Shown one piece after another: positions 13,132-50,329 of a stretch of 64,000 nt of DNA (its first letter is position 1; every line of letters begins with the position of its first letter). The position numbers and the translations under genes are program-made. The stretch spans positions 2,232,001 through 2,296,000 of the forward strand of contig NZ_CP009248.1 of the NCBI RefSeq assembly GCF_001941505.1, given 5' to 3'. Source of the DNA: Corynebacterium sphenisci DSM 44792. GTDB taxonomy: Bacteria; Actinomycetota; Actinomycetes; Mycobacteriales; Mycobacteriaceae. A model generated the notes under the pieces. That model was given only the letters and a program-made list of their open reading frames with translations. It made no database searches and was not told where the DNA came from.

Positions 13132-14793
13132 GTGATCTGGACCCGGCAGAAGCTACTGGACACCCTGCGAGATCTGCGCGTCCGGCGGGGGGATACCACG
13201 TCCATCGAGGTCAAGCGCGCCACCGGCGGGCTCCCGAAGATGGCGGAGACCCTGTGCGCCTTCGCCAACATGCCCAACGGCGGGACCGTCATCCTCGGCG
13301 TCGATGAGGCAGCGGGGGCATTTAACGTGGTCGGCGTATCGGATTCGATAACCCTCGCACAAGGGTTGACCGATATGGCCCGGCAGGCGGTGGAGCCGGC
13401 CCCCCACCTCGAATTCGAGCACGTGACGATCGACGATAAGAGCATCCTTGTCGCCCAGGTCCTCCCGCTCCGGATCGCCGACCGGCCCGCCCGCACCGGC
13501 GGCCGGGCCTACCTCCGTCAAGCCGATGGCGACTACCCCATGCACGAGCATGAAATTCGGATGGTGGAGATCTCCAAGCTCCACATCGATGAACGCATCG
13601 ACCAGGACCTGGCGCCGGCCAAGGGCCGGAGCAAAGCCGACCTGGTTCCGGAGCTGATCGAGGAGTACCTGACGGCAGTGCGGAAAAAGGACCCCCGGAT
13701 GGAGGATCAGCCGGATGGCCGGCTCCTCCAGCTGACGAACGTGCTGGCCCATACCGGTGAGCCGACCCTTGCGGGCCTCTACGCCCTGGGGGAGTACCCG
13801 CAGGGTCACTACCCCGCGCTGACCGTCACCGCCGCCGTCCAACTGCCCCCCGACGAACGCGGTGGAGGGCGGACCCGGAACCTCCGGGACTTCAGCGGGC
13901 CGCTTCCGACGCTGCTCGACGACATCATGGAATGGTGCGGCGACAACCTCGACACGATCCATCGCTACCGGGATGACGGCCATATGGAGATCACCCGGGA
14001 TCTGCCCCTCCCCGCGGTGCGCGAGCTCATCGCGAACGCCCTGGTGCACCGGGATCTCGGCCCGACCACCCTCGGCACCGGCAAGCAGGTGCAGATTCGG
14101 GTGACCCCGGACAAGCTGTTCATCCAGAGCCCGGGCGGGCTGCGGGGAGTCGCCCTGGCTCAGCTGGAGAGCATCGAGCATGCCCAGGCCGCCGTCAACC
14201 AGAGGCTCTACCAGATCGCCAAACGACTAACCACCGCAGACGGCGCGGCGCTCATCGAGGGCGAGGGCGGCGGAATACGCGAGGTCTTCCGCATCATGGA
14301 TGACCGGGGGCTGCGCCCACCGCACCTCGTCGACACCGGCGTCCAGTTCAACGCCCTCCTGTGGCGCCCCCGCGGCGAAGGCGCGACTCCCCCCATCGGA
14401 GCAGGGGATCCCGCACCCCGCAAGAAGCAGGCGGGCACTGCGGCACACGACGCGGGGCCCCGGACCACGCCGGCGCCGTCCACCAGCGGGGATGAGCCGC
14501 TCCCCCGGCGCGCGGGCGGCTCCCCCACGGGGCATGCCCCACGACGACCCCGAAATTCGAAACCTGTGCTCGACGCCCTCTGGGGCACCCCGGAGGGGCT
14601 ACCACTGTCCCGGATCGCCGAACTTACCGACCTCAACGTCAGCCAGGTCCGCTATGTCATGAACAGGCTCCTCGCCGAGGGACTGGCGGTCATGGACGGT
14701 GGCCAAGGGAAGCACCACACCCGGTACCGGCCGCTGACGGAGCCGGGCCCGACCCATGAGGACGGGCCGCAGAACCCGGACGATGCACACTGA
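13132..14793 (+). CDS. AlbA/Schlafen-like ATP-binding protein with C-terminal winged helix
   Basis: A 553-residue protein of the AlbA_2 (COG2865) type. Residues 1-130 form the AlbA/Schlafen-like domain (TSIEVKRATGG, FANMPNGGTVILGVDE, RAYLRQ). About 295-400 resemble the GHKL-like HATPase_c_4 domain (PAVRELIANALVHRDLG, IRVTPDKLFIQSPGGL). A disordered Pro/Ala linker (400-480) leads to a winged helix (PLSRIAELTDLNVSQVRYVMNRLLAEGL, about 490-525). Such proteins are described as regulators or as parts of phage-defence islands. GTG 13132 has TACTCT 6 nt upstream and no Shine-Dalgarno. Codon use is visibly less GC-biased than in neighbours and both flanks are AT-rich with related repeats, which suggests horizontal acquisition. 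Autoregulation through the repeats is an inference. Confidence 0.82.
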   Translation: MIWTRQKLLDTLRDLRVRRGDTTSIEVKRATGGLPKMAETLCAFANMPNGGTVILGVDEAAGAFNVVGVSDSITLAQGLTDMARQAVEPAPHLEFEHVTIDDKSILVAQVLPLRIADRPARTGGRAYLRQADGDYPMHEHEIRMVEISKLHIDERIDQDLAPAKGRSKADLVPELIEEYLTAVRKKDPRMEDQPDGRLLQLTNVLAHTGEPTLAGLYALGEYPQGHYPALTVTAAVQLPPDERGGGRTRNLRDFSGPLPTLLDDIMEWCGDNLDTIHRYRDDGHMEITRDLPLPAVRELIANALVHRDLGPTTLGTGKQVQIRVTPDKLFIQSPGGLRGVALAQLESIEHAQAAVNQRLYQIAKRLTTADGAALIEGEGGGIREVFRIMDDRGLRPPHLVDTGVQFNALLWRPRGEGATPPIGAGDPAPRKKQAGTAAHDAGPRTTPAPSTSGDEPLPRRAGGSPTGHAPRRPRNSKPVLDALWGTPEGLPLSRIAELTDLNVSQVRYVMNRLLAEGLAVMDGGQGKHHTRYRPLTEPGPTHEDGPQNPDDAH

Positions 14794-14965: not shown

Positions 14966-15136
14966 TCAGCGCCAGCGGCCGCGGAAGTTCAGGCCGGGGC
15001 CCAGCCGGACGGAGAACCCGCCCCGGCTGTTCACGGTCACCGGCCCGAAGCGCCGGGACACCGAGGCCCCGGAGCCGGAGTAGTTCACCCAGCTGTCCTT
15101 GTCCAGCCGCTTGCGCTTGCGGAATTGCAGTCCCAT
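14966..15136 (-). CDS. Small DUF4236-like protein
   Basis: A 56-residue protein, GLQFRKRKRLDKDSW at the start and NYSGSGASVSRRFGPVTVNSRGG following. This matches the N-terminal pattern of DUF4236 (basic RFRK start, then S-G-S repeats with alternating strands), a short family of unknown role often found alone or fused to membrane domains. GGGGAGG about 10 nt before ATG 15136 decides the start over an upstream in-frame ATG. It lies 25 nt after the clpC stop on the same strand, so it may be read through from clpC. Confidence 0.7.
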   Translation of the reverse strand: MGLQFRKRKRLDKDSWVNYSGSGASVSRRFGPVTVNSRGGFSVRLGPGLNFRGRWR

Positions 15137-15161: not shown

Positions 15162-17801
<2,640 letters not shown>

Positions 17802-17958: not shown

Positions 17959-18660
17959 TCAGTCGAGCAGCGCGAGATCGTCGACGGTGACCAGCCGGGC
18001 GTCGATGAGGGCGCGGGCCGCCCGGGTCATCCGCTGCCGGCGGTGGGTGTGCCGCCATTCCATGTCGCTGACCAGGCCGCCGCCGAGGATCAGCTCGTAG
18101 AGCTCGGTGCGCCGGTGCTCCACCGCCTTGGCGGTGGTGCCCAGCTTCTCCGCGGCCCGGGCGTCGGTGCACAGCGTGGCCAGGGAGTCCACCCGCCCGC
18201 GCAGGTAGTCCTCGGCGAAGGCGGCGACCAGGGCGCGTTCGCGTTCGGTGAGCTCGTCGATGGTGAGGGTGGCGGTGCCGGTGTCGACGTCGCCGAGGGG
18301 CTCGCCGGTGCCGGCCACCTCCTGCCGGATCTCGATCTCGTAGTTCTCCCGCTTGACCCCGAAGAGCACCGAGTACGCCGGTTCGGTGAGCGCCTGGATC
18401 TGGGCCGGGGCCAGCCGCATCCCCCGGGCGTCGCCGGGCCGGCGCAGCATCACGGTGACGTGGCTGCCGATGTTCTGCAGGTACCACGCCCCGCCGGCGG
18501 AGTAGAGCTGCAGCGCCCGGCGGTGCATGTACGGGTTGTCCTCGCCGACCCGCAGGTCCCCGTTGCGGCCGATCGTGAGGGTCTCCCCCGGCGCGGGGTC
18601 GAGCACCACGCCGCAGAGATCGTCCAGTTCGATTCTCGGTGCCTGCTCCGGCTGCGTCAT
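17959..18660 (-). CDS. FHA-like domain protein with C-terminal helical region
   Basis: A 233-residue cytoplasmic protein. Residues 25-75 ([21 protein letters not shown], then RRALQLY and [13 protein letters not shown]) match the forkhead-associated fold: GR, a short loop, HRR and N-x-GS positions that contact phosphothreonine are present. Residues 140-230 are helical ([12 protein letters not shown] ... [21 protein letters not shown]) and look like a sigma-4/LuxR-type helix-turn-helix, so it may couple phosphopeptide binding to DNA binding. It is the last gene of the kinase/Hsp70 operon, 10 nt after the kinase stop; ATG 18660 has GAGG upstream. Likely substrate or reader of the adjacent kinase (inference). 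Confidence 0.75.
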
Positions 18661-18670
18661 CGGACCTGCC

Positions 18671-20164
18671 TCATTCACTCGTTGCGCCAAACCAACGACG
18701 CAGAGAATCATAGGCGAAGGAGCATCCCGGATCGGCGCCGACCACCACGACCCACGGGCCGCGGCCGAGGCGCCCGCCGGCGCCGGGCCGGCCCGGCGCC
18801 GGGCCGGCGATGCAGTACTGGGCGCCGCCGGGCAGCTCCCCGACCACCGCATCGACCCCCTCCGGGGCGCCCGGGGCGGGCACCGGCCGCGCCCCCGCGC
18901 CGAGCCGGCCGGGGATCCGCCGCACCGGGTCCGCGGCGGCGCCGTCGGCGAGCAGGAGGTAGCGCAGCCGGGTGCCGTCGGCGGACTCCTCCACCCGGTG
19001 CAGCCGGGTGCCCGGGATCCCCGCCAGCGGCCCACCCCGGTCCGGCCGCGGCCGCCAGCCGGGATCGCCGTCCGGGGCGGCGGCGCCGCCGGCGGGCTGC
19101 GGGTCGCCGACGTAGGGGGCGTCGCCGCCGACCGGCAGATGCCCCGGCAGCACCGCCCCGGCGCCGGCGGCCAGGGTGATCGCCCCGAGCAGGGTCGCCG
19201 GGGGCGCCCAGCCGCGGCGGCGCCGGATCCCGATCGTCGCCGCGGCCAGCGCCGAGGCGAAGGAGCCGCAGTCCGGCCAGCGGCCCGCCGGGGAGCGCGC
19301 CCAGGCGCGCGCCAGCACCGCGTCCACCGCCGGGCCCCAGCCGGTCACCGGGGCCAGGCCGCGCAGATGCGCCCGGCGGGCGGCGGTGACGTCCCCGGCC
19401 GGGAAGGCGCGGCTGCCCGTGATCAGCTCGTAGGCGGTGCAGGCCAGGGCGTACTGGTCGCTGGCGGGGCTCATCACCCCGTCGGTGAAGATCTCCGGGG
19501 CCATGTAGGGCAGCGAGCCGGCGACCCGCCCGCCGGGCCCGGCGCGGCCGATCTCCGCCATGGTGGCGATGCCGAAGTCGACGAGGGTGACCGCGATGAG
19601 CCGCTCCCCGGCGCGGCCGCGGCCCCTCCCCCGCGGGGGCCGGCGGCGTTCCACGAGGATGTTCGCCGGCTTCACGTCGCCATGGGTGACCGGCGGCGCG
19701 CAGCCGGCGAGGGCGTCCAGGGCCACCGCCAGGTCCTCCACGATGGCGATCACCTCATGCGCCGGGTAGTGCCGGACCGGGATCTCGGTGAGCTCCTCGG
19801 CCAGGCTGCGCCCCCGCGCCAGGGTCATCGTGTACCACTGCAGACCGCCGCTGCGGCCGCCGCTGAACACCGAGATGATGTTCGGCGCGCGCAACGTCGC
19901 CGCGATCCCGATCTCCTCGTGGAAGAGCTCCGCCATCCGGGCCTCGGCCTCCGGGTCCGCCAACGGGGCCCGGATCTTCATCGCCTCGTCCCGGCCGAGC
20001 CGCGGGTTGTGCACCCGGAACACCGCGCCCATCGCGCCCTCGCCGATCCGCTCCTCGACCCGGTAGCCGGCGAACCAGTCGCCGATCCCCGGCATCCCCG
20101 GCGGCCGCGGCTCCCACCGCCCGTCCGGCGCCGCCCGGCGCGGGGGCGGGGCGCCGCCGCTCAC
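18671..20164 (-). CDS. Ser/Thr protein kinase, membrane-anchored (first of two)
   Basis: A 497-residue Hanks-type kinase. P-loop GEGAMGAVF at 41-49, Lys63 in AMKI, catalytic loop HGDVKPAN at 161-168 (HGD instead of HRD), DFG at 196-198, APE at 222-224. An Arg-rich insertion (RRRPPRGRGRGR) sits just after the catalytic loop. A transmembrane helix at about 320-340 leads to a 155-residue outer domain with little similarity to known sensors and no PASTA repeats. The GTG start at 20164 overlaps the stop of the upstream small gene by 4 nt. The HGD loop is shared with the second kinase at 26712 but the outer domains differ. Confidence 0.93.
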   Translation of the reverse strand: MSGGAPPPRRAAPDGRWEPRPPGMPGIGDWFAGYRVEERIGEGAMGAVFRVHNPRLGRDEAMKIRAPLADPEAEARMAELFHEEIGIAATLRAPNIISVFSGGRSGGLQWYTMTLARGRSLAEELTEIPVRHYPAHEVIAIVEDLAVALDALAGCAPPVTHGDVKPANILVERRRPPRGRGRGRAGERLIAVTLVDFGIATMAEIGRAGPGGRVAGSLPYMAPEIFTDGVMSPASDQYALACTAYELITGSRAFPAGDVTAARRAHLRGLAPVTGWGPAVDAVLARAWARSPAGRWPDCGSFASALAAATIGIRRRRGWAPPATLLGAITLAAGAGAVLPGHLPVGGDAPYVGDPQPAGGAAAPDGDPGWRPRPDRGGPLAGIPGTRLHRVEESADGTRLRYLLLADGAAADPVRRIPGRLGAGARPVPAPGAPEGVDAVVGELPGGAQYCIAGPAPGRPGAGGRLGRGPWVVVVGADPGCSFAYDSLRRWFGATSE

Positions 20165-20391
20165 CGGCGGACCCCGGCGGACCGCTCCGCCGGGGGCCGG
20201 GTGCCGTCCCGGTCCATCACGGCCACCGCGGCGGACCCCGGCCCGGCGTCGTCCGCCCCGGCGCAGCCGCCGCGCAGCGCGGGCACCGCCGCGGCGAGCG
20301 CCAGCAGCACCAGCAGCAGCCGCAGCGGCCAGCGCCGCGGGCGGCCGCTGGGCCGCTCGCCACCGGGGATCAGGGTGGGCTCATCGCTCAT
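20161..20391 (-). CDS. Small membrane or secreted protein in the kinase operon
   Basis: A 76-residue protein: about 20 residues Pro/Arg-rich, a hydrophobic segment at about 22-39 (LRLLLVLLALAAAVPAL), then a Gly/Ala/Asp-rich outer tail with one Cys. Possibly a single-pass accessory subunit. It overlaps the kinase start by 4 nt and follows the Hsp70 gene by 33 nt, so it is translated with both. I do not recognise a family. Confidence 0.6.
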   Translation of the reverse strand: MSDEPTLIPGGERPSGRPRRWPLRLLLVLLALAAAVPALRGGCAGADDAGPGSAAVAVMDRDGTRPPAERSAGVRR

Positions 20392-20424
20392 CGGGGCGCC
20401 CCCGCGTGCACCCGGCCGGGGCGC

Positions 20425-22029
<1,605 letters not shown>

Positions 22030-22083
22030 ATCGGTGTCCTTCATTCGTTCGGGTGCGCGGCGGCGGTCGCCGCCGGCGGTGGA

Positions 22084-22812
22084 TCAGCCGGCGGTGCCGG
22101 CGGGGGCGTGGCGCTGCACGCGGACCTTCGCCTTCACGGCGACCGCGGTCGGCCCGCCGTCCCGGAAGACGTAGACGTGGGTGGGCCGATCCGGGGCGAC
22201 GATGCGCCGGTCGAGGTCGGGGTCGGCGACGTCGACGACCCCGATCTGAGCGTGCCGCCGGCCGTCGAAGCGCTCCCCCGGGAGCACCCGCTCGGCGTCC
22301 ACGCCGAGGGCGGCCAGCGCCGCCTCCACGCCGGCGGCGTAGTAGTCGAAGTCCGCCGCGCCCTCGGCGAGCAGCTCATCGTGCAGGGCGGCGAGCTGGG
22401 CGACGGGCCCGGTGAGTCGGCTGCGCCACTGCTGCGCGGACATCGCCTCCAGGGTGGCGGACTGCTCCCGCAGCACCCGGTTGAGGGTGTCCAGGCGGCG
22501 GGCCAGGTCCGCGGCGTCCGGCACCGGCGCGGCACCGGGGTCGGCGCCGGCCGGCTCCGGGCCGGGCATCCGGTCCCGGTCCGGGTCCCGGTCGGGCCGG
22601 GCCGCGGCGGGCTCGGCCCCGGGGGCCTGCGCCCACTGGGTCGGCGGCGTCGCCTCCGGGTCGGCCCGCCCCGCCGCCCGGGGCGGATCCGGCTCGCGGG
22701 CGTCGAGGATGGCGTCGGTCAGCGCGGCCAGGGTCCGCGCGCGCCGCTCCTCGCGGCCACCACCGCGGCCGCGGCGCGGGCGTTCGGCCTGGGTTTTTCC
22801 GGGAATGGGCAT
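22084..22812 (-). CDS. GrpE-like nucleotide exchange factor
   Basis: A 242-residue protein with a disordered, charged N-terminal 95 residues, then helices (ADLARRLDTLNRVLREQSATL ... QLAALHDELL) and a C-terminal part with GERFDGRRHAQIGVVDVADP. The helix pattern plus the G-x-x-FD-x-x-xH motif and the final strands are the GrpE layout. It sits directly upstream of the cluster Hsp70, 54 nt before its start, supporting a role in ADP release from it. AAAGGTGA precedes ATG 22812. Divergent from housekeeping GrpE; the assignment is by motif and context. Confidence 0.68.
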   Translation of the reverse strand: MPIPGKTQAERPRRGRGGGREERRARTLAALTDAILDAREPDPPRAAGRADPEATPPTQWAQAPGAEPAAARPDRDPDRDRMPGPEPAGADPGAAPVPDAADLARRLDTLNRVLREQSATLEAMSAQQWRSRLTGPVAQLAALHDELLAEGAADFDYYAAGVEAALAALGVDAERVLPGERFDGRRHAQIGVVDVADPDLDRRIVAPDRPTHVYVFRDGGPTAVAVKAKVRVQRHAPAGTAG

Positions 22813-22818
22813 ATCAGG

Positions 22819-24117
22819 TCACCTTTGCTTCCGGTGGATGCTGAGCGCCCCGATGCCGCCGAGGGCGAGCAGCGGGACGAAGAACACGGGCTGGTAGAGG
22901 ACGGAGATCTCGACGGAGAGCAGGACCGCCGCCATGGCGCCGACCGCCAGCAGGTACCCGGCGACCGAGTGCAGGAGCCGCAGCGGCGCGGCGGCGACGA
23001 TGTAGCACAGGGTCCACAGGACCGCGGGCCCGGCCGTGCCGGTGAAGTCGTTCACGCCGAGGCCGATCAGCAGGCCCAGCAGGTAGCCGATGAACGCGAC
23101 GGGCGCGAACCACTCGGGGTCCTCCCCCCGCCCGACGGCGGGGGCGGGCTCCTCGTGCAGCGGATCGGCGGCGCCGGCCCGGCGCTCCAGGGCCTGCGGC
23201 AGGGAGGGGGTGCACCGGCCGTGCACCGGGTAGGCGCCCGGGGCCAGCTGCAGCTCGGCCCGGGAGAGCCGCCGGCCGCCCGTCCCGGTGAGCAGCGCCC
23301 GGGTGTGCCGGGCCACGCACGCCGCCGGATCCGGCAGGCGCTGCAGGTCCTCCAGCACCCGGGTCGCCGCCGCGGCCTCGGCGGAGCCGGTCTGCACCCG
23401 CCGGCCCAGCGCCCGCACCGCGTCGTCGATGAGCCCCACGTCCACCCGGCGGCCGTCGATGGTGCCCTCCCCCTGGGTGCGGTACCCGGGTTTGAGCAGG
23501 TCGGCCAGGCACCGGTAGCCGGGGGAGCAGGCGTGCAGCTCCGCGAAGGCGTCCCACACCTTGCGCTCCCGGCGGCCGGCGGGCCCGGGCTCCTCCCCGG
23601 GGTCCTCCGCGGTGGCGAGGCTGACCCGGAAATCGACCCGGCCCGGCGGGTTCACCAGGGCGCCGCGATCGGCCGGGCACAGCAGCAGCCGGTGCATCAG
23701 GGCCTCGACCTCGTCGGCGGGCAGCCGCCCGTCGGTGAAGTCCAGGGGCCGCCCGAGGAAGCCCCGGCGCAGCGCGGCGAGCTCCTCGGGGTCCATCGGC
23801 TCCGCCGACTCCCCGCGCAGCCGGTCGGCGACCCTCCCGAAGGGCGGGCGGCCGTCCCGGCCGGAGAACTCCGCGGCGAAGCCGGGGTCGGCGATGACGC
23901 CGAGGATGCGCATCGCCCGCGCGGATCGGGGGGCGCTGGCGGCCAGGGAGCGCACCAGCCGGATCCGCGCCGCCCAGGTCGCCGGGTCGGTGTCGGTGCC
24001 GGGCACCGGGATCCGGGACAGTCCCCGGATCACCGCCTCGGGGGTCATCGGGCAGCCGTGGGCGAACAGGCCCTCGCGCAGGGCGGTGCGCTGCGGTGCG
24101 GTGAGTTCGGCGGCCAT
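22819..24117 (-). CDS. Membrane protein of the kinase/Hsp70 cluster, four C-terminal helices
   Basis: A 432-residue protein with a long cytoplasmic N-terminus (about 300 residues, helical, Arg/Ala/Leu-rich, several Cys) and four hydrophobic helices between about 330 and 425, ending in a short basic tail (SIHRKQR). No catalytic motif seen. It ends 6 nt before the GrpE-like gene and begins 1 nt after the preceding gene's stop, so it belongs firmly to this operon. It may recruit the chaperone to the membrane (inference). Confidence 0.65.
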   Translation of the reverse strand: MAAELTAPQRTALREGLFAHGCPMTPEAVIRGLSRIPVPGTDTDPATWAARIRLVRSLAASAPRSARAMRILGVIADPGFAAEFSGRDGRPPFGRVADRLRGESAEPMDPEELAALRRGFLGRPLDFTDGRLPADEVEALMHRLLLCPADRGALVNPPGRVDFRVSLATAEDPGEEPGPAGRRERKVWDAFAELHACSPGYRCLADLLKPGYRTQGEGTIDGRRVDVGLIDDAVRALGRRVQTGSAEAAAATRVLEDLQRLPDPAACVARHTRALLTGTGGRRLSRAELQLAPGAYPVHGRCTPSLPQALERRAGAADPLHEEPAPAVGRGEDPEWFAPVAFIGYLLGLLIGLGVNDFTGTAGPAVLWTLCYIVAAAPLRLLHSVAGYLLAVGAMAAVLLSVEISVLYQPVFFVPLLALGGIGALSIHRKQR

Positions 24118-24118
24118 C

Positions 24119-25090
24119 TCACGCCCCCGGGAGGGACTCGGCGCGGTCGAGCATCCGCGGCGGCAGCCCGGTCATGAAGCGGCGGGTGCCGTCGACGACG
24201 ATGCACCAGCCGACGCCGACCTCCTCGGGGAGGCTGCGCACCACCAGGTCGGTCACCCGGCCGTCGGCGACGCCGGCGAGGCTGAGCAACTTCCCGCCGC
24301 CCTGCCGGCCCATGTCGCCGACCACCCGGACCAGCTCGCCGCCGGCGGCGCGGGCGTCGGCGATCTGCTCCAGGCCGAGCACCACCTCCGCGTCGAAGTC
24401 CGCGCGCCGGAAGGGGACGCCTGCGAGCAGGGACAGCAGCGGCAGCACGAGGATCGGGGCGCCGGGCAGCAGGCGTGCGGTGAGGGCGGCCGCCCCGCCG
24501 CGGTCCTCCCGCTCCCCCCGCGTCGCCTCGGCCGCGGCCCCCTCCCCGGCGGGGGCCGGGGACGGCCGATCGGCCCCGCCGGCGCCGTCCTCCCCTCCGG
24601 CGGCCTTCGCGGCATCGGGCCCGGGGCGGGCGGGGGCGCCCGCCGGGATCGCCGCATCCGCGGCATCGTCTGGCACGGCGGCGGCATCGGAGCCCGCGGG
24701 CAGCGCCAGGACCAGGATGAACCAGGCGATGAGGGCCAGCACCGCGGTGCCGATCCGCCGGGCCCGGCCGGCGATGAGCGCCACGACGCCGCCGAGGAGC
24801 GCAATCGCGGCGAGCACGGCCCAGGATCCGATCCCCGCGGCGAAGCCCGCCGCGGCGTGCAGCACGGGGACCGCCGCCATGGTGGACAGGGCGAAGGCGC
24901 CAGTGATCACCCACGGCGCACGCGCGCGGTACCCGGGGGCGGTGAACCCGCCCCGATCATCCCGGGCGACCCGGGTCGGCAGGTAGCCGCGCATCGCCGC
25001 CCCGTCGAAGGCCTGCACCGCCGCGGCCCCGGTAGCCCGGAACCGACCGCGGGCTCTCCCGTCCCATGGGCCCTCCCAGTCGACTGTCAT
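24119..25090 (-). CDS. Membrane protein, first gene of the kinase/Hsp70 operon
   Basis: A 323-residue protein with hydrophobic helices at about 60-80, 83-105 and 110-130, a Pro/Ala/Gly-rich disordered stretch (about 135-190), another hydrophobic segment (about 200-220) and a C-terminal soluble domain (DAEVVLGLEQIADARAAGG ... VGVGWCIVVDGTRRFMTGLPP). GGAGGAAGGG before ATG 25090 fixes the start. Function not recognised. It is divergent from the lipoprotein at 25246 with 155 nt between, holding both promoters. Confidence 0.65.
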   Translation of the reverse strand: MTVDWEGPWDGRARGRFRATGAAAVQAFDGAAMRGYLPTRVARDDRGGFTAPGYRARAPWVITGAFALSTMAAVPVLHAAAGFAAGIGSWAVLAAIALLGGVVALIAGRARRIGTAVLALIAWFILVLALPAGSDAAAVPDDAADAAIPAGAPARPGPDAAKAAGGEDGAGGADRPSPAPAGEGAAAEATRGEREDRGGAAALTARLLPGAPILVLPLLSLLAGVPFRRADFDAEVVLGLEQIADARAAGGELVRVVGDMGRQGGGKLLSLAGVADGRVTDLVVRSLPEEVGVGWCIVVDGTRRFMTGLPPRMLDRAESLPGA

Positions 25091-25245
25091 CGCCGTCCCT
25101 TCCTCCCAATCCGGTGCGTTGTCGAATCCAGGGAAACCCGCGGCGGGTGCCGCGGGCACCGGGACTACTCCCCTACCGCCGGGGCGGTCCGGTGGTGATC
25201 CTGAACCCGAGACCACTCCACCGAGACCCCAGGGAACGGATCATC

Positions 25246-25953
25246 ATGCGCATCGACCACCTCCCCCTCGCCGCCGCCCTCGCCGCCGCGGCGCTGCTCA
25301 CCGGCTGTGGCGGGCAGCCGCCCGCCCCCGCCCCCGAGACCGTGACCACCACGGTGGAGGTGACCCCCGAGGACGCGCCGACCGGCATCGGCACCTCGAG
25401 CACCACCTCCTCGACGAGCACCACCACCTCGACCACGACACCGGAGGATGACCGCGACGAGGACCTCGACGACCGCGGCGACTCCGGCAGCATCGAGGAG
25501 GCGATGGCGGACTACCCCAACTCCTTCATCAGCGGCCTGCGGCCCGGGTCGGGCAAGGCCAGCTCCAGCTGGGACGTCGAGTTCCTGCCCGGCCAGCGCG
25601 ACCGGGCCGGCCTGACGGAGGCGTGGGTGAACATCGACGGCCAATACGCCAACGGGGTGCTGCAGTACCCGCGGCGGGAGGGGTACGCCGATTTCGCCGT
25701 GGAGTTGCACACCCGGGTCACCGATCAGGACATCTGCACCGGCACCGTCGAGATCCTGGATGAGGAGGGCAACCCCACCTCCTACGGCTCCGTGGAGAAC
25801 ACCCCCTCCGCCTGCTACAGCTCGTCCATCGACCCCCGGTTCCCCCGGCAGCAGGTGGCGGTGACCGAGCCCGGCACCTACTGGCTGGTCGTCACCCTCG
25901 ACCAGGTCGGCTATGAGCCGGTGACCCTGGCGCAGGCCTTCCTGGTCCTGTGA
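25246..25953 (+). CDS. Lipoprotein with Ser/Thr-rich linker
   Basis: A 235-residue predicted lipoprotein: lipobox LLTGC (Cys21), then a Val/Thr- and Ser/Thr-rich stretch (about 30-65) that is probably extended and could be O-glycosylated, then a beta-rich domain with a Cys pair. The Thr-rich stretch is on the outer side, so it is not an obvious kinase target. ATG 25246 was chosen for the signal peptide; AGGGAACGG upstream is a modest ribosome binding site. First gene of the plus-strand arm ending in the second kinase. No family recognised. Confidence 0.7.
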   Translation: MRIDHLPLAAALAAAALLTGCGGQPPAPAPETVTTTVEVTPEDAPTGIGTSSTTSSTSTTTSTTTPEDDRDEDLDDRGDSGSIEEAMADYPNSFISGLRPGSGKASSSWDVEFLPGQRDRAGLTEAWVNIDGQYANGVLQYPRREGYADFAVELHTRVTDQDICTGTVEILDEEGNPTSYGSVENTPSACYSSSIDPRFPRQQVAVTEPGTYWLVVTLDQVGYEPVTLAQAFLVL

Positions 25954-26031
25954 CGGGGCCCGGGCGATATGGTGAACAACAACAAACGAGGAGCCGCCGG
26001 CCGCGACCGGCGGCACGGAGGAGGACGCGCC

Positions 26032-26709
26032 ATGCCGAACCAGACCCCGCCGGGCCCCGGCGCCGATCGGTTCACCGACCCGACCCTGCCCCCGGAGACC
26101 CTCGACGGCGGCGCCCCCGCCGGCGCCGCCCCGGGCGCCCCCGCCGGCGCCACCGCGGTGCCGGCGCCGGACGGCGGCACGCGCCGCACGCTGATGATCG
26201 TCCTCGCCGTCCTGGTGGCCCTGCTGGTGGCCGCGGTCGCGGTGACCGCGCTGCTCACCCGCGGGGGTCCCGAGCCGAAGTACCTCCCGCTGCCCGGGGG
26301 CCCCGACTCCCGGGACTCCCGTTGGGACTATCCGGCGGAGGGGCTGCTCACCCACGCCATCGACACCCCGGACGCGCTCCTCGTCAACTCCGCATGGCAG
26401 CAGGCGCTGGTCGACGTGGCGAGGGGGGCCGCCCCCGGGGATCCGATGCCCGAAGAACTCGCCGATGTCGAGGTCGAGGGGATCGGCGCATTCGACTGCC
26501 ACCGGCTCCCCCACAGCGGGGACAACCCCGGGAAGAAGACGATGACCTGGGAGTGCCGTGGGCCGATCCGGGAGAACGCGGAGACCGGCGGATACGGCAT
26601 GCAGGTGGTGCTCACCCCGCAGGCGCAGGGCGTTGGCCACGGCATGATCATCCCGAGCGACCCGCAGTGGGCGGAGCACGCCATCGACCACTGGGGCTAC
26701 GGGCAGTAA
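26032..26709 (+). CDS. Single-pass membrane protein upstream of the second kinase
   Basis: A 225-residue protein: Pro/Gly/Ala-rich cytoplasmic 50 residues, a transmembrane helix at about 52-75 (LMIVLAVLVALLVAAVAVTALL) and an outer domain with a Cys pair (FDCHRLP ... TWECRGP). GGAGGA at 26019 is well spaced from ATG 26032; the alternative ATG 25969 lacks a ribosome binding site. An 8-bp hairpin (25993-26000/26007-26014) lies just upstream in the leader. It ends 2 nt before the kinase start. Possibly a sensor partner of the kinase (inference). Confidence 0.65.
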   Translation: MPNQTPPGPGADRFTDPTLPPETLDGGAPAGAAPGAPAGATAVPAPDGGTRRTLMIVLAVLVALLVAAVAVTALLTRGGPEPKYLPLPGGPDSRDSRWDYPAEGLLTHAIDTPDALLVNSAWQQALVDVARGAAPGDPMPEELADVEVEGIGAFDCHRLPHSGDNPGKKTMTWECRGPIRENAETGGYGMQVVLTPQAQGVGHGMIIPSDPQWAEHAIDHWGYGQ

Positions 26710-26711
26710 CG

Positions 26712-28265
26712 GTGAACGCCGCAACTACCCCGACGCTGCCCCCCGGATCGGATTTCGCCGGCTACCGCGTGGAACGCCGCATCGGCGCCGGCGGCGCCGG
26801 GGAGACCTACCTGGTGCGCAACCCGGGCCTGGACCGGGTGGAGTGCCTGAAGCTGCTCAACCGGGCCTCCGGCCCGGCCGCCATCGCCGAGGCCCGCACC
26901 GTCGCCCGCCTGGGCCACCCCGGCACGGTCACCGTGTTCAACAACGGCGCCACCGGCGGCCACGTCTGGTACACCATGCCCTTCGCCCCGGGCGGCGACC
27001 TCGGCCGCTACCTGGACCTGCTGCCGGATGACGGCAGCCGGCTGCGCGAGGCGATGCCGATGCTCGGGGACATCGCGCAGACCATCGACGATCTGCACCA
27101 GCGGCCCACGCCGGTCATGCACGGCGACATCAAGCCGTCCAACATCCTCGTCGACACCTCGACCCCGCACCGGCCGCGGGCGCTGCTCTCCGATTTCGGC
27201 TCCTCCCTGGCCGGGGGCGCCGCCGGCGGCGGCCCCGGGCCCGCCGGCTCCTTCGGCGCCACCCCGCCGTACCTCTCCCCGGGCCGGCGCTTCGGCCGGC
27301 CCCCCTCGGCCCCGGACGACCGCTACGCCTTCGCCTGCACCGCCTTCGAGGCGCTCACCGGACACCGTCCCTTCGGCGTGGACCTGCCGGGCGACGCCAC
27401 CGCCCGGACCCGGATCGAGGCCTGGCGGCGGGCGCATCTGGCCCCGCGGCGCCCGGTGCCCTCCGATCACGACCCGGCGCTGGTGGCGCTGGACCCGGTG
27501 TTCCGCCGGGCGCTGGCCATCGAGGAGGCCGAGCGGCACCCCACCGCCGGCGAATTCCACCGGGAGCTGCACCGGGCGCTCTACGGGGATCCGGCCGCGG
27601 CCGCGGCGCGACGTTCCCGTCGCCGGACGACCGTCCTCGCCGCCGCGGTGACCGTCCTCGCGCTCGCCCTGGCCGGGGCCGGATGGGCGGCGTTCGCGCC
27701 CCGGGGGATCAAGGTCGGCGGCGGCTGCCCGGACGCCTCCGCGATCACGGGCGGGCGGAATTTCACGCTGCTCGGGAACTACGCGGTCGCCGATCTCCCC
27801 CTCCCCTCCCTGGATGCCCTGCCCGCACATTGCCGCTACTCCTTCGATCCCCCCACCGGGTCCCAACTGCGCCGGGGGCAGGCCACGGTCCTGGTGTTCA
27901 ACTCGCGGGACGAGGCCACGCGGGAGGCCCGGGACGAGATCCTCGCCCGGCTTCCCCGCAGGACCGGGCGGGAGGACCCGGAGGAGGAGGATCGTCTGGT
28001 GGTGGCGAAGGGGACCTGGGCCGGGGCGATGCCGAAGGGCACGCCGCCGGTGCACATCACCCTCTACCCCGACCACTCCGGGGCCGACTGGTCGGACAGC
28101 TGGTCCAGCTGCGTCGCGGCGACCGAGGACGGCACGCTCACCCTCGTCGAGATCCACGAGGGGCATCCCGGAAGCGCCACGGGCGTCGGCGGAACCGCCA
28201 GCGGGGCGGAGTTGATGTGCGAGGCCAACCTGAAGCTCCTCCAGCTGTGGCAGACCGCGGGCTGA
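26712..28265 (+). CDS. Ser/Thr protein kinase, membrane-anchored (second of two)
   Basis: A 517-residue Hanks-type kinase starting at GTG 26712. Glycine loop GAGGAGETY (25-33, lacking the usual Gly-x-V end), Lys47 in CLKLL, HGDIKPSN at 137-144, DFG at 161-163. The APE motif is replaced by LSPG, so the activation segment is atypical. Transmembrane helix at about 308-328, then a 190-residue outer domain with Cys at about 334, 375, 461 and 489 that may form two disulfides, reminiscent of PknH-type sensor domains but not clearly the same. The catalytic residues are there, so activity is likely. It closes the plus-strand arm of the kinase/chaperone block. Confidence 0.9.
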   Translation: MNAATTPTLPPGSDFAGYRVERRIGAGGAGETYLVRNPGLDRVECLKLLNRASGPAAIAEARTVARLGHPGTVTVFNNGATGGHVWYTMPFAPGGDLGRYLDLLPDDGSRLREAMPMLGDIAQTIDDLHQRPTPVMHGDIKPSNILVDTSTPHRPRALLSDFGSSLAGGAAGGGPGPAGSFGATPPYLSPGRRFGRPPSAPDDRYAFACTAFEALTGHRPFGVDLPGDATARTRIEAWRRAHLAPRRPVPSDHDPALVALDPVFRRALAIEEAERHPTAGEFHRELHRALYGDPAAAAARRSRRRTTVLAAAVTVLALALAGAGWAAFAPRGIKVGGGCPDASAITGGRNFTLLGNYAVADLPLPSLDALPAHCRYSFDPPTGSQLRRGQATVLVFNSRDEATREARDEILARLPRRTGREDPEEEDRLVVAKGTWAGAMPKGTPPVHITLYPDHSGADWSDSWSSCVAATEDGTLTLVEIHEGHPGSATGVGGTASGAELMCEANLKLLQLWQTAG

Positions 28266-28290: not shown

Positions 28291-29001
28291 TCAGCCGGCG
28301 GTGTCCGCCAGGTACGCCAGGATCGCCTTCACCCGCCGGTTGGGCACCTCCGGGGGCAGGTCCAGCTTCATCAGGATCGCGGCGATGTGCTTGCCCACCG
28401 CCGCCTCGGAGACGAAGAGCTCCGCGGCGATCTCCGAGTTCGCCAGGCCCCGGGCCATCGCCTCGAGCACCTCGGTCTCCCGGGGGGTGAGCCCGGCCAG
28501 GCCGGGGGCGCCGCGGCCCATCGCCCCGGCGACCTCCGGGTCGATGACCACCGCCCCGGCGGCGACGGCGCGCACGGTGCCGATGAAGTCGGCGACCCGG
28601 CCCACGTTGTCCTTGAGCACGTAGCCGGTGCCGCCGACCCGGCCGGCGGGCTGGGAGAGCTCCAGCACCCGGCGGGCGTAGGCGCCGGCGACGTACTGGG
28701 AGCACACCACGATGCCGATGCCCGGGTGGTCCCGGCGGATCGCCGCGGCGGCGCGCAGCCCGTCATCGGCCATCCCGGGCGGCATCCGCACATCGGTGAT
28801 CACCACCTCCGGGACGGTGCCGGCGGCGACGAGCTCGTCGACCAGGCGGGGCAGCGCCTCGGCGTCGGCGCATTGGCCGACCACGGTGAAGCCCCGCCGG
28901 GCGAGCATCGCGGCCAGCGATTCGCGCAGCAGCCCGGAGTCGTCGGCGAGCACCACCCGCAGGGTGTCCGCGCGCTCCGGGGCGCCGCCGGCGGCGCCCA
29001 T
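28291..29001 (-). CDS. NarL/LuxR-type response regulator
   Basis: A 236-residue regulator. Receiver domain with the acidic pair Asp20/Asp21, phospho-acceptor Asp70 in VVITDVRMPP and Lys in GYVLKDNV. C-terminal LuxR helix-turn-helix (LTPRETEVLEAMARGLANSEIAAELFVSEAAVGKHIAAILMKL is split across about 170-215). ATG 29001 overlaps the histidine kinase stop by 1 nt (TGATG), and GGGGAGGGGGG precedes it, so the two are coupled. Probably controls the divergent ABC transporter genes. Confidence 0.94.
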   Translation of the reverse strand: MGAAGGAPERADTLRVVLADDSGLLRESLAAMLARRGFTVVGQCADAEALPRLVDELVAAGTVPEVVITDVRMPPGMADDGLRAAAAIRRDHPGIGIVVCSQYVAGAYARRVLELSQPAGRVGGTGYVLKDNVGRVADFIGTVRAVAAGAVVIDPEVAGAMGRGAPGLAGLTPRETEVLEAMARGLANSEIAAELFVSEAAVGKHIAAILMKLDLPPEVPNRRVKAILAYLADTAG

Positions 29002-29834
29002 CACGATCCCCCCTCCCCCGGGGAGGCCCCGGGTCCGTCCCCGGGCAGCACCACCGCGGGCTCCCCGCGGTGCAGCAGCAGCGGGATCCCGGCGCTGACC
29101 CGGGTGGGCCCACCCGCCGGGGAGGCCACCTCCAGGTGCCCGCCGATCGCGGCGAGGCGCTCGCGCATCCCGGCCAGGCCGCCGCCGGGGGCGGGCCGGG
29201 CCCCGCCGGGGCCGGTGTCCACCACGGTCAGCCGCAGCTCCTCGGAAACGGTGACCAGCACGCTCACCGCCGCCCCGGGGGCGTGCTTGGCGGCGTTGGT
29301 GAGGCATTCCAGGACCAGGAAGTAGGCGCAGGCGGCGACCCCCTCCGGCAGCTCCGGGATCCGGTCCGGGCAGGTCAGGGACACCTCCCCGGGATGGTTG
29401 GCCACCGCGTCCTCCAGGGCGGCGGCCAGGCCCTCCTCGGCGAGCACCCGGGGGTGGATGCCGCGCACCGTGGCGCGCAGCGCGGCCAGCGCCCGGTGCA
29501 GGCTGGACTGGGCCTGCTCCAGCAGCTCCACCAGCTCCGCGGCATCCTCCGGGGCCTCCAGCTGCGCCTCGCCGAGCTGCAGCGAGGCGGCGACCAGGTA
29601 CTGCTGGGCGCCATCGTGCAGATCCCGCTCGATCCGGCGGCGCTCCACCTCGTAGGCGGCGACGATCGCCCGGCGGGAGTCGATGAGCCGGGCGATCTCG
29701 GCCTCGTAGGCCCCCGGATCCGCGCCGGCGCGGGCGCGCCCGGGCAGGAGCGCGCGCAGCCGGGCGAGCGGGCCGCGGCGGGCGGGCTCGCCGGCGGCCG
29801 CGGTCCGCGGGCGGTGGTTGTCGGGGACGGGCAC
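29001..29834 (-). CDS. Histidine kinase, NarL/DesK class, soluble
   Basis: A 277-residue kinase. HisKA_3 motif ERRRIERDLHDGAQQYL with His73, and a HATPase domain with ECLTNAAKHA (N box) and DTGPGG. No transmembrane helix or input domain is visible: only about 45 residues precede the coiled segment, so the signal may come from the partner transporter or the cytoplasm. GTG 29834 follows TAGGAT by 7 nt with no Shine-Dalgarno, pointing to a leaderless transcript; longer in-frame extension would run into the divergent promoter of the ABC gene. Confidence 0.9.
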   Translation of the reverse strand: MPVPDNHRPRTAAAGEPARRGPLARLRALLPGRARAGADPGAYEAEIARLIDSRRAIVAAYEVERRRIERDLHDGAQQYLVAASLQLGEAQLEAPEDAAELVELLEQAQSSLHRALAALRATVRGIHPRVLAEEGLAAALEDAVANHPGEVSLTCPDRIPELPEGVAACAYFLVLECLTNAAKHAPGAAVSVLVTVSEELRLTVVDTGPGGARPAPGGGLAGMRERLAAIGGHLEVASPAGGPTRVSAGIPLLLHRGEPAVVLPGDGPGASPGEGGS

Positions 29835-29943
29835 GGCCCCGATCCTAGGGGCGGTGCGCCGGCCGGGGGTGGGGCTGGCCCTACCCGGAAAACTAGGCTG
29901 GGCCCCATCGATTCCGGCGGCGGCGCGGACTGGACTGGAGGCC

Positions 29944-30645
29944 ATGAACGAACCACTTCTCACGGCCACCGGCCTGACCAAGACCTTCGGCGCCGAGCAC
30001 GCCCTGCGCGGCGTGGACCTGGCCATCGGCGAGGGCGAGACCCTCGCCGTGATGGGCCCCTCCGGCTCCGGCAAATCCACTCTGCTGCACTGCCTGTCCG
30101 GGGTGCTGGCGCCCACCGGCGGGGAGATCCTCTTCGACGGGATCGAGCTCACCGGGCTCTCCGACGCGAAGCGCTCCCGGCTGCGGCTGCACCGCTTCGG
30201 CTTCGTCTTCCAGGACGGCCAGCTGCTGCCGGAGCTGCCCGCCCGGGAGAACGTGGCGCTGCCGCTGCGGCTCACCGGCATGTCCGCGGCCAAGGCCCTC
30301 TCCCGCGCCGACGAGACCCTGGACCAGCTGGGTCTGGGCGATCAGCGGGCCAAGCTGCCCGGGGCGATGTCCGGGGGCCAGGCGCAGCGGGTCGCGGTGG
30401 CCCGGGCCATCGCCGGCCGGCCCCGGGTGGTCTTCGCCGATGAGCCCACCGGGGCCCTGGACCAGGCCACCGGGCATGAGGTGATGCAGCTGCTGACCTC
30501 CCTGGTGCGGATGCACCACATGGCCCTGGTGATGGTCACCCACGACGTCAACGTGGCCTCCTGGTGCTCCCGGATCGTGGAGATCCGGGACGGCCGGATC
30601 CACGCCGATCGCGCGGTGCGCGCCACCCGGGGGGATGCGCGATGA
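29944..30645 (+). CDS. ABC transporter ATP-binding protein, MacB/LolD type
   Basis: A 233-residue ATPase: Walker A GPSGSGKST (38-46), Q-loop FVFQDGQLLPEL, signature MSGGQAQRV, Walker B RVVFADEPTGALD, H-loop VTHD. This class pairs with FtsX-like permeases and exports peptides or acts as mechanotransmission for antimicrobial peptide defence. CTGGAGG gives a strong ribosome binding site before ATG 29944. It overlaps the permease start by 4 nt (ATGA). The divergent two-component system with 109 nt between is a common arrangement for peptide-antibiotic response units. Confidence 0.95.
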   Translation: MNEPLLTATGLTKTFGAEHALRGVDLAIGEGETLAVMGPSGSGKSTLLHCLSGVLAPTGGEILFDGIELTGLSDAKRSRLRLHRFGFVFQDGQLLPELPARENVALPLRLTGMSAAKALSRADETLDQLGLGDQRAKLPGAMSGGQAQRVAVARAIAGRPRVVFADEPTGALDQATGHEVMQLLTSLVRMHHMALVMVTHDVNVASWCSRIVEIRDGRIHADRAVRATRGDAR

Positions 30646-32117
30646 GCGCCGCCCCGACCGACGCCGCCGCCCCCGCCGGCCGGGGGCTGCCCCGCCCGCG
30701 CAACCTGGCCCGGCTCTCCGCCGAGTTCACCGCCGCGCGCTGGCGCACCCGCTCCGGTGACGGGGTGCTCGCGGTGCTGAGCATCATCGCCTTCGCGGTG
30801 GCCGCGACCATCGCCAACATCGTCGCCTCCGGCACCTGGATGTTCCGCAACCGGGCCGCCTACCCCACCGGGGTGGTCGCCGAGGCGATCGCCGAGGACG
30901 CCAGCTTCGACATCATCGTGAGCTTCTACGTGGTCCTGGCGCTGCTGGCCTGCGTGCTGCTGGTGTTCCCGGTGGTGCACCTGGCCACCTCCGCCACCCT
31001 GCTCGGGGCGCGCAGCCGGGAGCGCCGGCTGGCGATCCTGCGCCTGGTCGGGATGACCCGGTCCGAGGTGTCCCTGCTCGGCTTCCTGGAGGTGATGCTG
31101 CAGGCGCTGCTCGGGGTGCTCGCCGGCGGGGCACTCACCATCGCCCTGCTGCCCGCCTTCCAGAAGCTGACCTTCCAGGCCATGCGGGTGCGCTACGAGG
31201 AGATGCTGCTGCCCTGGTGGGGCTACCTGGTGGTGGCCGCGGTGCTGCTGGCGATCACCGCGGCGGCCACCGCCGCCGGCCTGGCCCGGGTGCGGATCTC
31301 CCCGCTGGGGGTGGCCCGCCGGGAACCGCCGGCGGCGCTGCGCTGGTGGCCGGTGCTCGCCGCGGTGGCGGTGCTGGTTGCGGTGCAGATCGGCACCCGG
31401 CTGGGCGGCACCGGGGCCAGCGTGACCCGGCGCACCGTCCTCGGGCTCATCGTGGCCCTGGCCTTCATCCTGGTCGTGGACGTGCTCATGCCCCGCGGGC
31501 TGCAGCTGGCCGCCCGGCTGCTGGCCCGGCTCTCCGGGGTCACCGTGTCCTGGGCCTCCCGCCGGGTCGCCGCGAACCCCAAGCCCACCTGGCGCCGGGT
31601 CGGGGTGCTGACCTTCATGGTGCTCATCACCTCCTTCTTCGGCCAGATGCCGGTCACCGCCGGTGAGGTGAACACCGCCGCGGCGAAGACCGTCGCCGAG
31701 GCCCTCCTCATCGACATCCGGCTGGGCATGATGTTCACCATCGGCTTCAGCTTCGCCCTCGCCGCGGTGTCCGCGATGGTGAACCAGGCCTCCGCGGAGT
31801 TCGAGCGCGCCGAGGAGACCCGGGCGATGCTGCGGATGGGCGTCTCCGACGCCCGGCTGCGCGCGGTGAACTGGCTGGAGGCCCTGGGCCCGCTGGCCGG
31901 CGCGGTGCTCCTCGCCCTGGGCCTCGGCTGGTTGATGGCGAGCCTCACCGGCATCGCCGATGCGGTGACCCCGGACGAGGGTGAGGTGCTGCAGCCGCTG
32001 ATGGGCCACGCCCCCATCGCCGGGATCGCCGGCGCCGGGATCGCGCTGATGGTGCTGGCCCTGGCCGCCACCGGACCGATCCACCGCCGGATCATCACCG
32101 AGGATCGGGAGCGGTAG
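30642..32117 (+). CDS. ABC transporter permease, FtsX-like
   Basis: A 491-residue membrane protein with about eight to ten hydrophobic helices in two repeated FtsX-like halves. The first half has ATLLGARSRERRLAILRLVG, the family motif before the TM2/3 pair; the second has AEFERAEETRAMLRMGVSD in the equivalent place. The long loop between the halves contains TM segments rather than the large outer domain of true MacB, as in the corynebacterial bacitracin/lantibiotic-type permeases. Translationally coupled to the ATPase. Likely role: efflux or sensing of membrane-active compounds (inference). Confidence 0.9.
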   Translation: MSAAPTDAAAPAGRGLPRPRNLARLSAEFTAARWRTRSGDGVLAVLSIIAFAVAATIANIVASGTWMFRNRAAYPTGVVAEAIAEDASFDIIVSFYVVLALLACVLLVFPVVHLATSATLLGARSRERRLAILRLVGMTRSEVSLLGFLEVMLQALLGVLAGGALTIALLPAFQKLTFQAMRVRYEEMLLPWWGYLVVAAVLLAITAAATAAGLARVRISPLGVARREPPAALRWWPVLAAVAVLVAVQIGTRLGGTGASVTRRTVLGLIVALAFILVVDVLMPRGLQLAARLLARLSGVTVSWASRRVAANPKPTWRRVGVLTFMVLITSFFGQMPVTAGEVNTAAAKTVAEALLIDIRLGMMFTIGFSFALAAVSAMVNQASAEFERAEETRAMLRMGVSDARLRAVNWLEALGPLAGAVLLALGLGWLMASLTGIADAVTPDEGEVLQPLMGHAPIAGIAGAGIALMVLALAATGPIHRRIITEDRER

Positions 32118-32231: not shown

Positions 32232-32273
32232 GGGAGAACTCCCCTTTCTCCCCTTCCACGGCGGCCATAGCGT
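32232..32273 (+). promoter_or_regulatory. Palindromic box 24 nt before a TAGCGT -10 (copy 1 of 3)
   Basis: GGGAGAACTCCC (32232-32243), 24 nt, TAGCGT (32268-32273). The same 12-bp box and exact spacing recur at 41243-41284 and, with changes, at 50288-50329. It drives the repeat protein at 32418 through a leader of about 140 nt. No usual -35 is present, so the box may bind an activator or be an alternative -35 (inference). Confidence 0.6.
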
Positions 32274-41242: not shown

Positions 41243-41284
41243 GGGAGAACTCCCGTGGTGGCGGCGCCGGCGGCGCCCTAGCGT
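41243..41284 (+). promoter_or_regulatory. Palindromic box 24 nt before a TAGCGT -10 (copy 2 of 3)
   Basis: GGGAGAACTCCC (41243-41254), 24 nt, TAGCGT (41279-41284), identical in box, spacing and -10 to the copy at 32232. It precedes the coiled-coil membrane protein at 41349 by about 65 nt. Confidence 0.6.
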
Positions 41285-50287: not shown

Positions 50288-50329
50288 GGGAGTGTTCCCG
50301 TGGGGCCCGCCGCGGCCGCGCCCTGGCGT
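50288..50329 (+). promoter_or_regulatory. Palindromic box 24 nt before a TGGCGT hexamer (copy 3 of 3)
   Basis: GGGAGTGTTCCC (50288-50299), 24 nt, TGGCGT (50324-50329), then 7 nt to ATG 50337. Spacing equals copies 1 and 2; box and -10 have diverged slightly. The bases just before the hexamer (GCGCCC) also match copy 2. Confidence 0.5.

Follow-up and report, generated by a model that had tools for sequence, protein, structure and literature searches.

A divergent gene block in Corynebacterium sphenisci combines Ser/Thr kinases, a lidless Hsp70 with a GrpE-like factor, an FHA-like protein and a palindromic promoter element

Introduction

In the feedback loops of DnaK with HspR and with sigma-32, it is the chaperone DnaK that controls the regulator. 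Actinobacteria also possess pairs of an FHA-like/helix-turn-helix (HTH)-like protein and a kinase, for which, to our knowledge, there is no known function. A further setting for Hsp70 is provided by the GAP1-N2 conflict systems: Hsp70 together with GrpE is reported in ~14% of GAP1-N2 neighbourhoods, and kinases, as a separate theme, in 10% of them (Kaur et al. 2020, eLife, PMC7159879). Here we analyse a ten-gene block at positions 17959-28265 of a 64,000-nucleotide stretch of the genome of Corynebacterium sphenisci DSM 44792 (contig NZ_CP009248.1, positions 2,232,001-2,296,000; hereafter the window, numbered from its first nucleotide). The block encodes two Ser/Thr kinases, a lidless Hsp70, a GrpE-like protein and an FHA-like/HTH-like protein together with a lipoprotein and several membrane proteins.

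We propose, giving the idea about an even chance, that the block encodes a signalling system which spans the membrane, acts at least in part through transcription and would have its own regulon of envelope proteins and a recruited Hsp70/GrpE pair. Transcription is indicated as an output because a palindromic promoter element is tied to the cluster. Although the modules are of known kinds, we know of no earlier instance of their combination or of the private promoter class. A preliminary description of the window had likewise known of no system with this gene set, and in the literature that we searched (mostly without subscription papers) we found no paper uniting kinases, Hsp70/GrpE and an FHA-like protein.

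Results

Gene content and co-inheritance of the block

All ten genes listed in the preliminary description were recovered by gene calling, and they form two operons that are divergent rather than facing, as had been stated. The minus-strand operon encodes, in order of transcription, the polytopic membrane protein MP323 (24119-25090), MP432 of no known family (22819-24117), the GrpE-like nucleotide exchange factor (22084-22812, 242 aa), the lidless Hsp70 (20425-22044, 539 aa), a small protein with a single transmembrane (TM) segment (20161-20391, 76 aa), the kinase PK1 (18671-20164, with a start either at GTG 20164 or at ATG 20095) and the FHA-like/HTH-like protein, which is the candidate regulator (17959-18660, 233 aa). 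The plus-strand operon consists of the lipoprotein LIPO (25246-25953, 235 aa), the single-pass protein SP225 (25969-26709, start at 25969 or 26032) and the single-pass Ser/Thr kinase PK2 (26712-28265). The tight coupling ascribed to the minus strand holds for the 4-nucleotide overlap between the small protein and PK1, if the latter starts at GTG, and for the gaps of 6 and 1 nucleotides, but not for those of 10 (between the FHA-like gene and PK1), 33 and 39 nucleotides. Hsp70 (E 2e-85), PK1 (E 1.4e-25) and PK2 (E 2.1e-18) match Pfam above the cut-off, and the other seven of the ten proteins do not. No block protein reaches an NCBIfam model cut-off, the strong matches there being to kinase and Hsp70 models.

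The block recurs in the same order in two other Corynebacterium lineages, with one kinase fewer in each. In locus L022 (genome G007) it lies beside a lysS homologue and is without PK1 and the small protein (FHA-PK2-SP225-LIPO / MP323-MP432-GrpE-Hsp70). In one closely related group, L023-L026 (G034, G068, G098 and G101), it adjoins clpC as in the window; PK2 is absent, and the small protein is there in a longer form of 197 aa. The genes of these relatives, L025 included, were called with a self-training gene caller. The window and L022-L026 thus make up six intact copies, representing three lineages. The number of kinases is one or two, while the FHA-like protein, LIPO, an SP225-type protein, MP323, MP432, GrpE and Hsp70 are always present. 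The co-inheritance on which the preliminary description hinged is therefore borne out, gene order being kept in all three lineages.

At the same time, the distribution is sparse. With MP432 as a marker, 7/242 genomes of the genus match, and among 200 genomes of the order the window's own genome alone does so (0/199 others). A search with the GrpE-like protein finds 7/151 genomes, including G120, whose locus is of the GTPase type, and one with Hsp70 at E 1e-90 finds 9/151, including G059 and G120 (both GTPase-type, with DO-GTPase2 adjoining by Pfam) and the remnant in G086. In 43 annotated locus files, matches to the FHA and Hsp70 profiles co-occur solely in L022-L026 and in that remnant, L027, which is a decayed copy of the block.

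A palindromic promoter element tied to the block

In all three lineages, the intergenic region between the divergent operons contains a shared palindrome, GGGAG-NN-CTCCC or a variant of it. In the window it is found at 25161-25172 (GGGACTACTCCC, within ACCGGGACTACTCCCCTACC at 25158-25177) in the divergent promoter, and its place is the same in L022-L026. The sequence ACCGGGANNNCTCCCNTNCC occurs exactly, once per divergent promoter, in 6/6 intact copies. It is present exactly in 11/148 loci, and all 11 are stretches of the six carrier genomes that include the cluster promoter. The 64-kb window contains one exact copy and three with two mismatches, 0.73 being expected in all. We also counted the core GGGAG(A/T)(A/T)CTCCC in seven whole genomes, using the pattern read backwards as a control. 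AA/TT-centred cores lie at the cluster in G007 (2/2) and G034 (3/3) and at the decayed cluster in G086 (1/1); the window's genome has two, both inside the window (32232 and 41243). The non-carriers G004 and G006 have none, each having one TA-centred site. The control pattern occurs once each in G131 and G004 and is absent from the other five genomes. The TA-centred sites in L149 (G006), L153 (G004) and L158 (G131) were seen by eye to occupy the same place inside a leuA-like gene, and probably reflect coding conservation.

The palindrome is followed by TANNNT exactly 24 nucleotides downstream in 5 of 12 promoters and in none at 44 other offsets (5-49); these promoters were hand-picked. L024-L026 and L027 were left out because they nearly duplicate L023 and L022, respectively, and L039 because its sites are more divergent. 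The five are those of window genes 32418 and 41349, of LIPO and a 152-aa gene in L023, and of a DUF4236 gene in L022. Counting both strands, the window contains TAGCGT four times, twice exactly 24 nucleotides after a palindrome. The arrangement is what would be expected if the palindrome were an activator site with its centre near -42 and TANNNT a -10 element of the sigma-70 type. On the plus strand, the two sites with GGGAGAACTCCC, 24 nucleotides and TAGCGT lie at 32232-32273 and 41243-41284; the first precedes 32418-33458 (a 346-aa protein with two clear TM segments) and the second 41349-42347 (332 aa, likewise with two TM segments). A weaker site on the same strand, GGGAGTGTTCCC with TGGCGT after 24 nucleotides (50288-50329), precedes 50394-50798 (134 aa, with a lipobox-like start by eye). 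In all, the palindrome-linked genes encode a lipoprotein, the 152-aa protein of L023 with its signal-peptide-like start, small DUF4236 proteins and membrane proteins. The literature on the palindrome yielded nothing relevant, only one unrelated insect paper. Gene 41349 was also considered as a paralogue of genes at the second locus described below, and this was rejected. The DUF4236 genes are all on the minus strand (L022:10561-10749, L023:14347-14541 and window 14966-15136); a palindrome lies upstream in L022 and L023, and none is near the window copy beside clpC.

These observations bear on the suggestion that outside-sensing kinases control the chaperone. It is one possibility, but the promoter element indicates an output in transcription. 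One alternative is a membrane chaperone machine, in which Hsp70/GrpE, tethered by MP432 and MP323, would fold or export envelope proteins, the chaperone would be regulated directly by the kinases and the palindrome binder would be encoded elsewhere. MP323, MP432, GrpE and Hsp70 do form a fixed subset within one operon. However, the FHA-like/HTH-like protein is likewise present in every intact copy, the palindrome follows the cluster and not the genus, and related sites mark another FHA/kinase locus, so that we regard this machine as unlikely.

The Hsp70/GrpE-like pair and its relatives

The Hsp70 has the nucleotide-binding domain and the beta substrate domain, and its best matches among solved structures are DnaK chains. 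Since the protein stops shortly (~30 residues) after the beta domain, the helical lid is missing, and the preliminary description was right to call it lidless. The residues that we take to correspond to the nucleotide site of DnaK are invariant across nine aligned Hsp70 sequences. By protein search, the best named matches are from Corynebacterium amycolatum, C. pseudopelargi and an uncultured Corynebacterium. The GrpE-like protein has no direct Pfam match, one ortholog reaching a sub-threshold E of 0.0086. Nonetheless, its identity as GrpE, also proposed earlier, is supported by profile comparison: hhalign against eight relatives beside related Hsp70s gives a probability of 98.7 (P 2e-16, 143 columns), where four of the eight pass the Pfam GrpE cut-off, that of L091 fails and three were outside the Pfam scan. 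No J-domain protein is encoded inside the cluster; a separate dnaK and two J-domain proteins are found elsewhere in the host genome, which is 2.59 Mb long and of high GC (guanine-cytosine) content. One possible Hsp70 partner is the product of window gene 10168-11946 (plus strand, 592 aa), which combines a J-like N-terminus without HPD (by eye) with a single TM segment and an outer part weakly resembling PQQ/BamB. It is 30% identical over 80 aa to a J-like protein of the second locus, and the Pfam DnaJ model fails to match it.

The cluster Hsp70s group as a single clade (100/100) in a maximum-likelihood tree, the sister being a protein from a Gordonia metagenome-assembled genome (99/98). Hsp70s of the same lineage adjoin double-GTPase genes in L028 and L029 (Pfam DO-GTPase2, E 1e-8 and 2e-6) and, by similarity to DO-GTPase2 genes, in L087, L088, L135 and L136. 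Others lie among tellurium-resistance-type genes in L091 and L096-L099 (TerD by Pfam in L097, the rest by eye). Two loci, L086 and L094, carry no weight, their Hsp70 being there but uncalled, and L090 and L095 are outside the annotated set. Judged by sequence, the Hsp70/GrpE pair is kin to the pairs of published GAP1-N2/double-GTPase conflict systems.

This kinship gives some substance to the idea that the block is itself an anti-phage or anti-competitor system, remodelled from GAP1-N2 systems; the Hsp70/GrpE pair and the kinases would have been retained, with MP432 and MP323 in place of the GTPase/GAP1 core as the effector. The patchy distribution and the decay seen in it agree with such a role, as does the occurrence of Hsp70+GrpE and, separately, of kinases in GAP1-N2 neighbourhoods reported by Kaur et al. 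(2020, PMC7159879). On the other hand, none of the ten proteins belongs to a GTPase family (Pfam, E up to 1) or matches GAP1, an FN3/DnaJ or TPR partner or a known effector domain in Pfam. In the GTPase- and tellurium-type Hsp70 loci annotated, the FHA, MP432 and MP323 profiles have no match (E up to 1e-3). No alignment was obtained between MP432 and the third gene in the GTPase loci, and comparison of MP432 with partner proteins of Hsp70 there failed in 3/3 cases (hhalign probability 0.1 each). PADLOC matches are essentially to kinase domains, with two weak others (SP225, E 0.0035; Hsp70, E 0.04), and those to the anti-phage kinase PD-T4-6 cover the kinase domain. The predicted regulon, moreover, is made of envelope-type proteins. 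Since GTPase, GAP1 and known effector domains were not found in the block, the kinase-triggered conflict system suggested in the preliminary description is without direct support and, despite the kinship of its chaperone, improbable.

The FHA-like/HTH-like protein and a second locus

No Pfam FHA match is found in the FHA-like protein, whereas three other places in the same genome do match. At the profile level, the 29-member FHA-like family scores 33.4 against 19 genuine FHA domains in hhalign (P 1e-4, probability 57.8, 88 columns), compared with 22.9 for the best of 200 column shuffles, 12.4 for the reversed profile and at most 19.1 for four unrelated alignments. An FHA fold is thus supported by profile alone; against solved structures the family has no match (best E 0.07). 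The profile matches in the blocks of all intact relatives. Searching a database with the FHA alignment found at least 9 proteins among the 8000 candidates sharing most words with it. The earlier assignment of an FHA-like fold with an HTH-like tail is upheld insofar as both parts score above shuffles, the HTH part less firmly.

In Actinomycetota, the FHA-like/HTH-like family is found in 19/396 genomes at 26 places. We inspected 19 loci (17 genomes) besides the window cluster, leaving out G264, G369, G535:C32, G563:C121 and G563:C5. A kinase lies at most four genes away in 15/19 of these loci, and in none of the 19 is there a match to the Hsp70, GrpE, MP323 or MP432 profiles. In L080 and L082, from the same phylum and related above the class level, the FHA-like/kinase pairs adjoin a lysS homologue, that of L082 lying between lysS and clpC homologues; in the FHA tree, these pairs do not group with the window's block despite their like placement.

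The genome of C. sphenisci itself has a second locus of this kind (C1 at ~1.79-1.80 Mb, 1793.0-1806 kb; L066/L067), where a kinase and two more FHA-like/HTH-like proteins are encoded along with a LIPO homologue (hhalign 98.6, P 9e-16). Palindromes of the form GGGA-N4-TCCC are intergenic there in 4/5 cases (intergenic fraction 0.16, P 0.0029), and in the window in 4/7 (intergenic fraction 0.086, P 0.0015). Of the two control patterns, one was intergenic in 0/5 cases and the other had no sites. Because related palindromes mark this second locus, the FHA-like/HTH-like protein is the best candidate for the binder of the palindrome. The same locus encodes a protein with a J-domain-like N-terminus (by eye), without HPD and without a Pfam match. 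A membrane protein from there was tried as a homologue of MP323 and rejected (hhalign probability 0.2).

Kinases and membrane proteins

Both kinases retain the catalytic Lys (VAIK), the HGD motif with the catalytic-loop Asp, and DFG in Pfam and sequence alignments. PK2 (TM 308-326) and the kinases of L022 and L023 have one clear predicted TM segment each. The best candidate in PK1 (residues 300-318 of the 474-aa form) has a hydropathy of 1.58, slightly below the threshold of 1.6, and the kinase is probably single-pass. The preliminary view of membrane-anchored HGD kinases therefore stands for the catalytic residues and for PK2, and falls just short of the threshold for PK1. No PP2C was found by Pfam among the ten proteins. 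LIPO has a lipobox, LTGC, read by eye. MP432 has ~330 soluble residues followed by four predicted C-terminal TM helices, and MP323 a conserved soluble C-terminal part. The 76-aa small protein, identified by alignment and TM prediction, aligns with the N-terminus of its 197-aa counterpart in L023-L026, the outer part of which it lacks. As for a relationship between SP225 and the 197-aa form (L023), hhalign of the two families covers the TM region and nothing else, so that homology of the outer parts is unproven.

Neighbouring genes

The preliminary description had placed the block between clpC and lysS. Both genes are real: clpC (15162-17801, minus strand), which flanks the block, was confirmed, and a class II (D/K/N) tRNA synthetase at 50830-52374 was taken as lysS; the latter, however, is ~22 kb past the block with other genes intervening. 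The other flank, directly after PK2, is a group at 28291-32117 encoding a NarL-type response regulator, a HisKA_3 histidine kinase and an FtsX-type ABC pair. These genes were considered as parts of the system and excluded, since they are absent from the blocks of L022-L026. Adjoining clpC, at 13132-14793 (plus strand), there is a gene for a Schlafen AlbA_2/RecG-C-type protein with an IclR-type HTH.

Discussion

Based on these data, the signalling system might work as follows. The outer domains of the kinases, LIPO and the single-pass proteins would sense a signal in the envelope or from outside, and the kinases would act on the cytoplasmic FHA-like/HTH-like regulator, presumably by phosphorylation. 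The regulator or its partner would then activate promoters in which GGGAG-NN-CTCCC has its centre near -42 and is followed, 24 nucleotides downstream, by TANNNT as the -10 element. The regulon would include the block's own genes and, in the vicinity, genes whose products are lipoproteins, membrane proteins or secreted proteins. The lidless Hsp70 and GrpE, recruited from a conflict-system lineage, would probably hold or release the regulator or a membrane component, by analogy with DnaK-HspR and sigma-32. It is tempting to speculate further that the kinases and the dedicated Hsp70/GrpE jointly control the FHA-like/HTH-like activator of a private promoter class, an Hsp70 of immune-type GTPase systems being re-used as a folding or occupancy gate. 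We consider such a chaperone-gated, kinase-driven switch possible but tentative, and clearly less probable than the signalling system in its general form.

Several observations weigh against the proposed signalling system. What it says of binding, phosphorylation and expression is arrived at by inference. In the FHA-like domain, Gly-Arg is kept, and the canonical Ser, His and Asn(-Gly) are not at the aligned positions. FHA domains contact phosphothreonine through a pattern of Arg, Ser and Asn. Since these contacts are missing in the profile alignment, the reading of phosphothreonine, proposed in the preliminary description, is doubtful. Support for the HTH-like tail is weak: it resembles a LuxR-type HTH with a score of 19.2 (P 0.007) versus 13.4 for the best of 100 shuffles, the template being a single sequence. 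The promoter geometry is also uneven. Read both ways, the divergent cluster promoters of the window, L022 and L023 give six cases, of which only L023-LIPO has TANNNT at +24; window-LIPO (GATCCT), window-MP323, L023-MP323, L022-LIPO and L022-MP323 are without it, so that the fixed spacing is carried mainly by satellite promoters. Within the set, the palindrome in the cluster promoter of the window is the most imperfect and has a poor -10 element, and the 24-nucleotide spacing was not seen by eye at the second-locus sites. Finally, G131 (L039) has LIPO, SP225, a kinase, the FHA-like protein and a short MP432 without Hsp70/GrpE, and Hsp70 thus appears dispensable to the signalling half; its two AA/TT-centred sites are both outside the cluster stretch examined.

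G131, with its LIPO/SP225/kinase/FHA module largely alone, and the second locus of C. sphenisci, with LIPO, FHA and kinase but no Hsp70, could also mean that this module and that of Hsp70, GrpE and the membrane proteins are independent and merely neighbours. Yet three lineages join the two through one divergent promoter and one operator, and in the window and in L023-L026 PK1 and the FHA-like gene are downstream of Hsp70 in the same operon. We therefore consider independence very improbable.

If the proposed signalling system is real, a single block would link transmembrane Ser/Thr kinases of bacteria with a dedicated Hsp70 machine and an equally dedicated promoter class. The pairs of FHA-like/HTH-like proteins and kinases would gain a concrete output, a promoter of defined fixed spacing. 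The system would also show how Hsp70/GrpE modules pass between conflict systems and signalling.

In comparison with known systems, the cluster has in common with canonical DnaK-GrpE-DnaJ the ATPase domain, the beta substrate domain and the exchange factor, whereas the helical lid and the J protein are found only in the latter. As in HspR/DnaK and sigma-32/DnaK, an Hsp70 gene lies next to a putative transcription regulator and its operator; both the regulator family and the operator are different, and feedback in the cluster is conjectural. The FHA-like/HTH-like and kinase pairs of Actinomycetota share the FHA-like/HTH-like family with the cluster, and several of them lie beside PP2C, MoxR-type AAA and DUF58 genes (three by Pfam, others by eye). 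The GAP1-N2/double-GTPase systems (Kaur et al. 2020) differ in having a GTPase, GAP1 and an FN3/DnaJ or TPR partner, and share with the cluster adjacent GrpE and Hsp70 genes of the same sequence family, membrane association and, separately, kinases.

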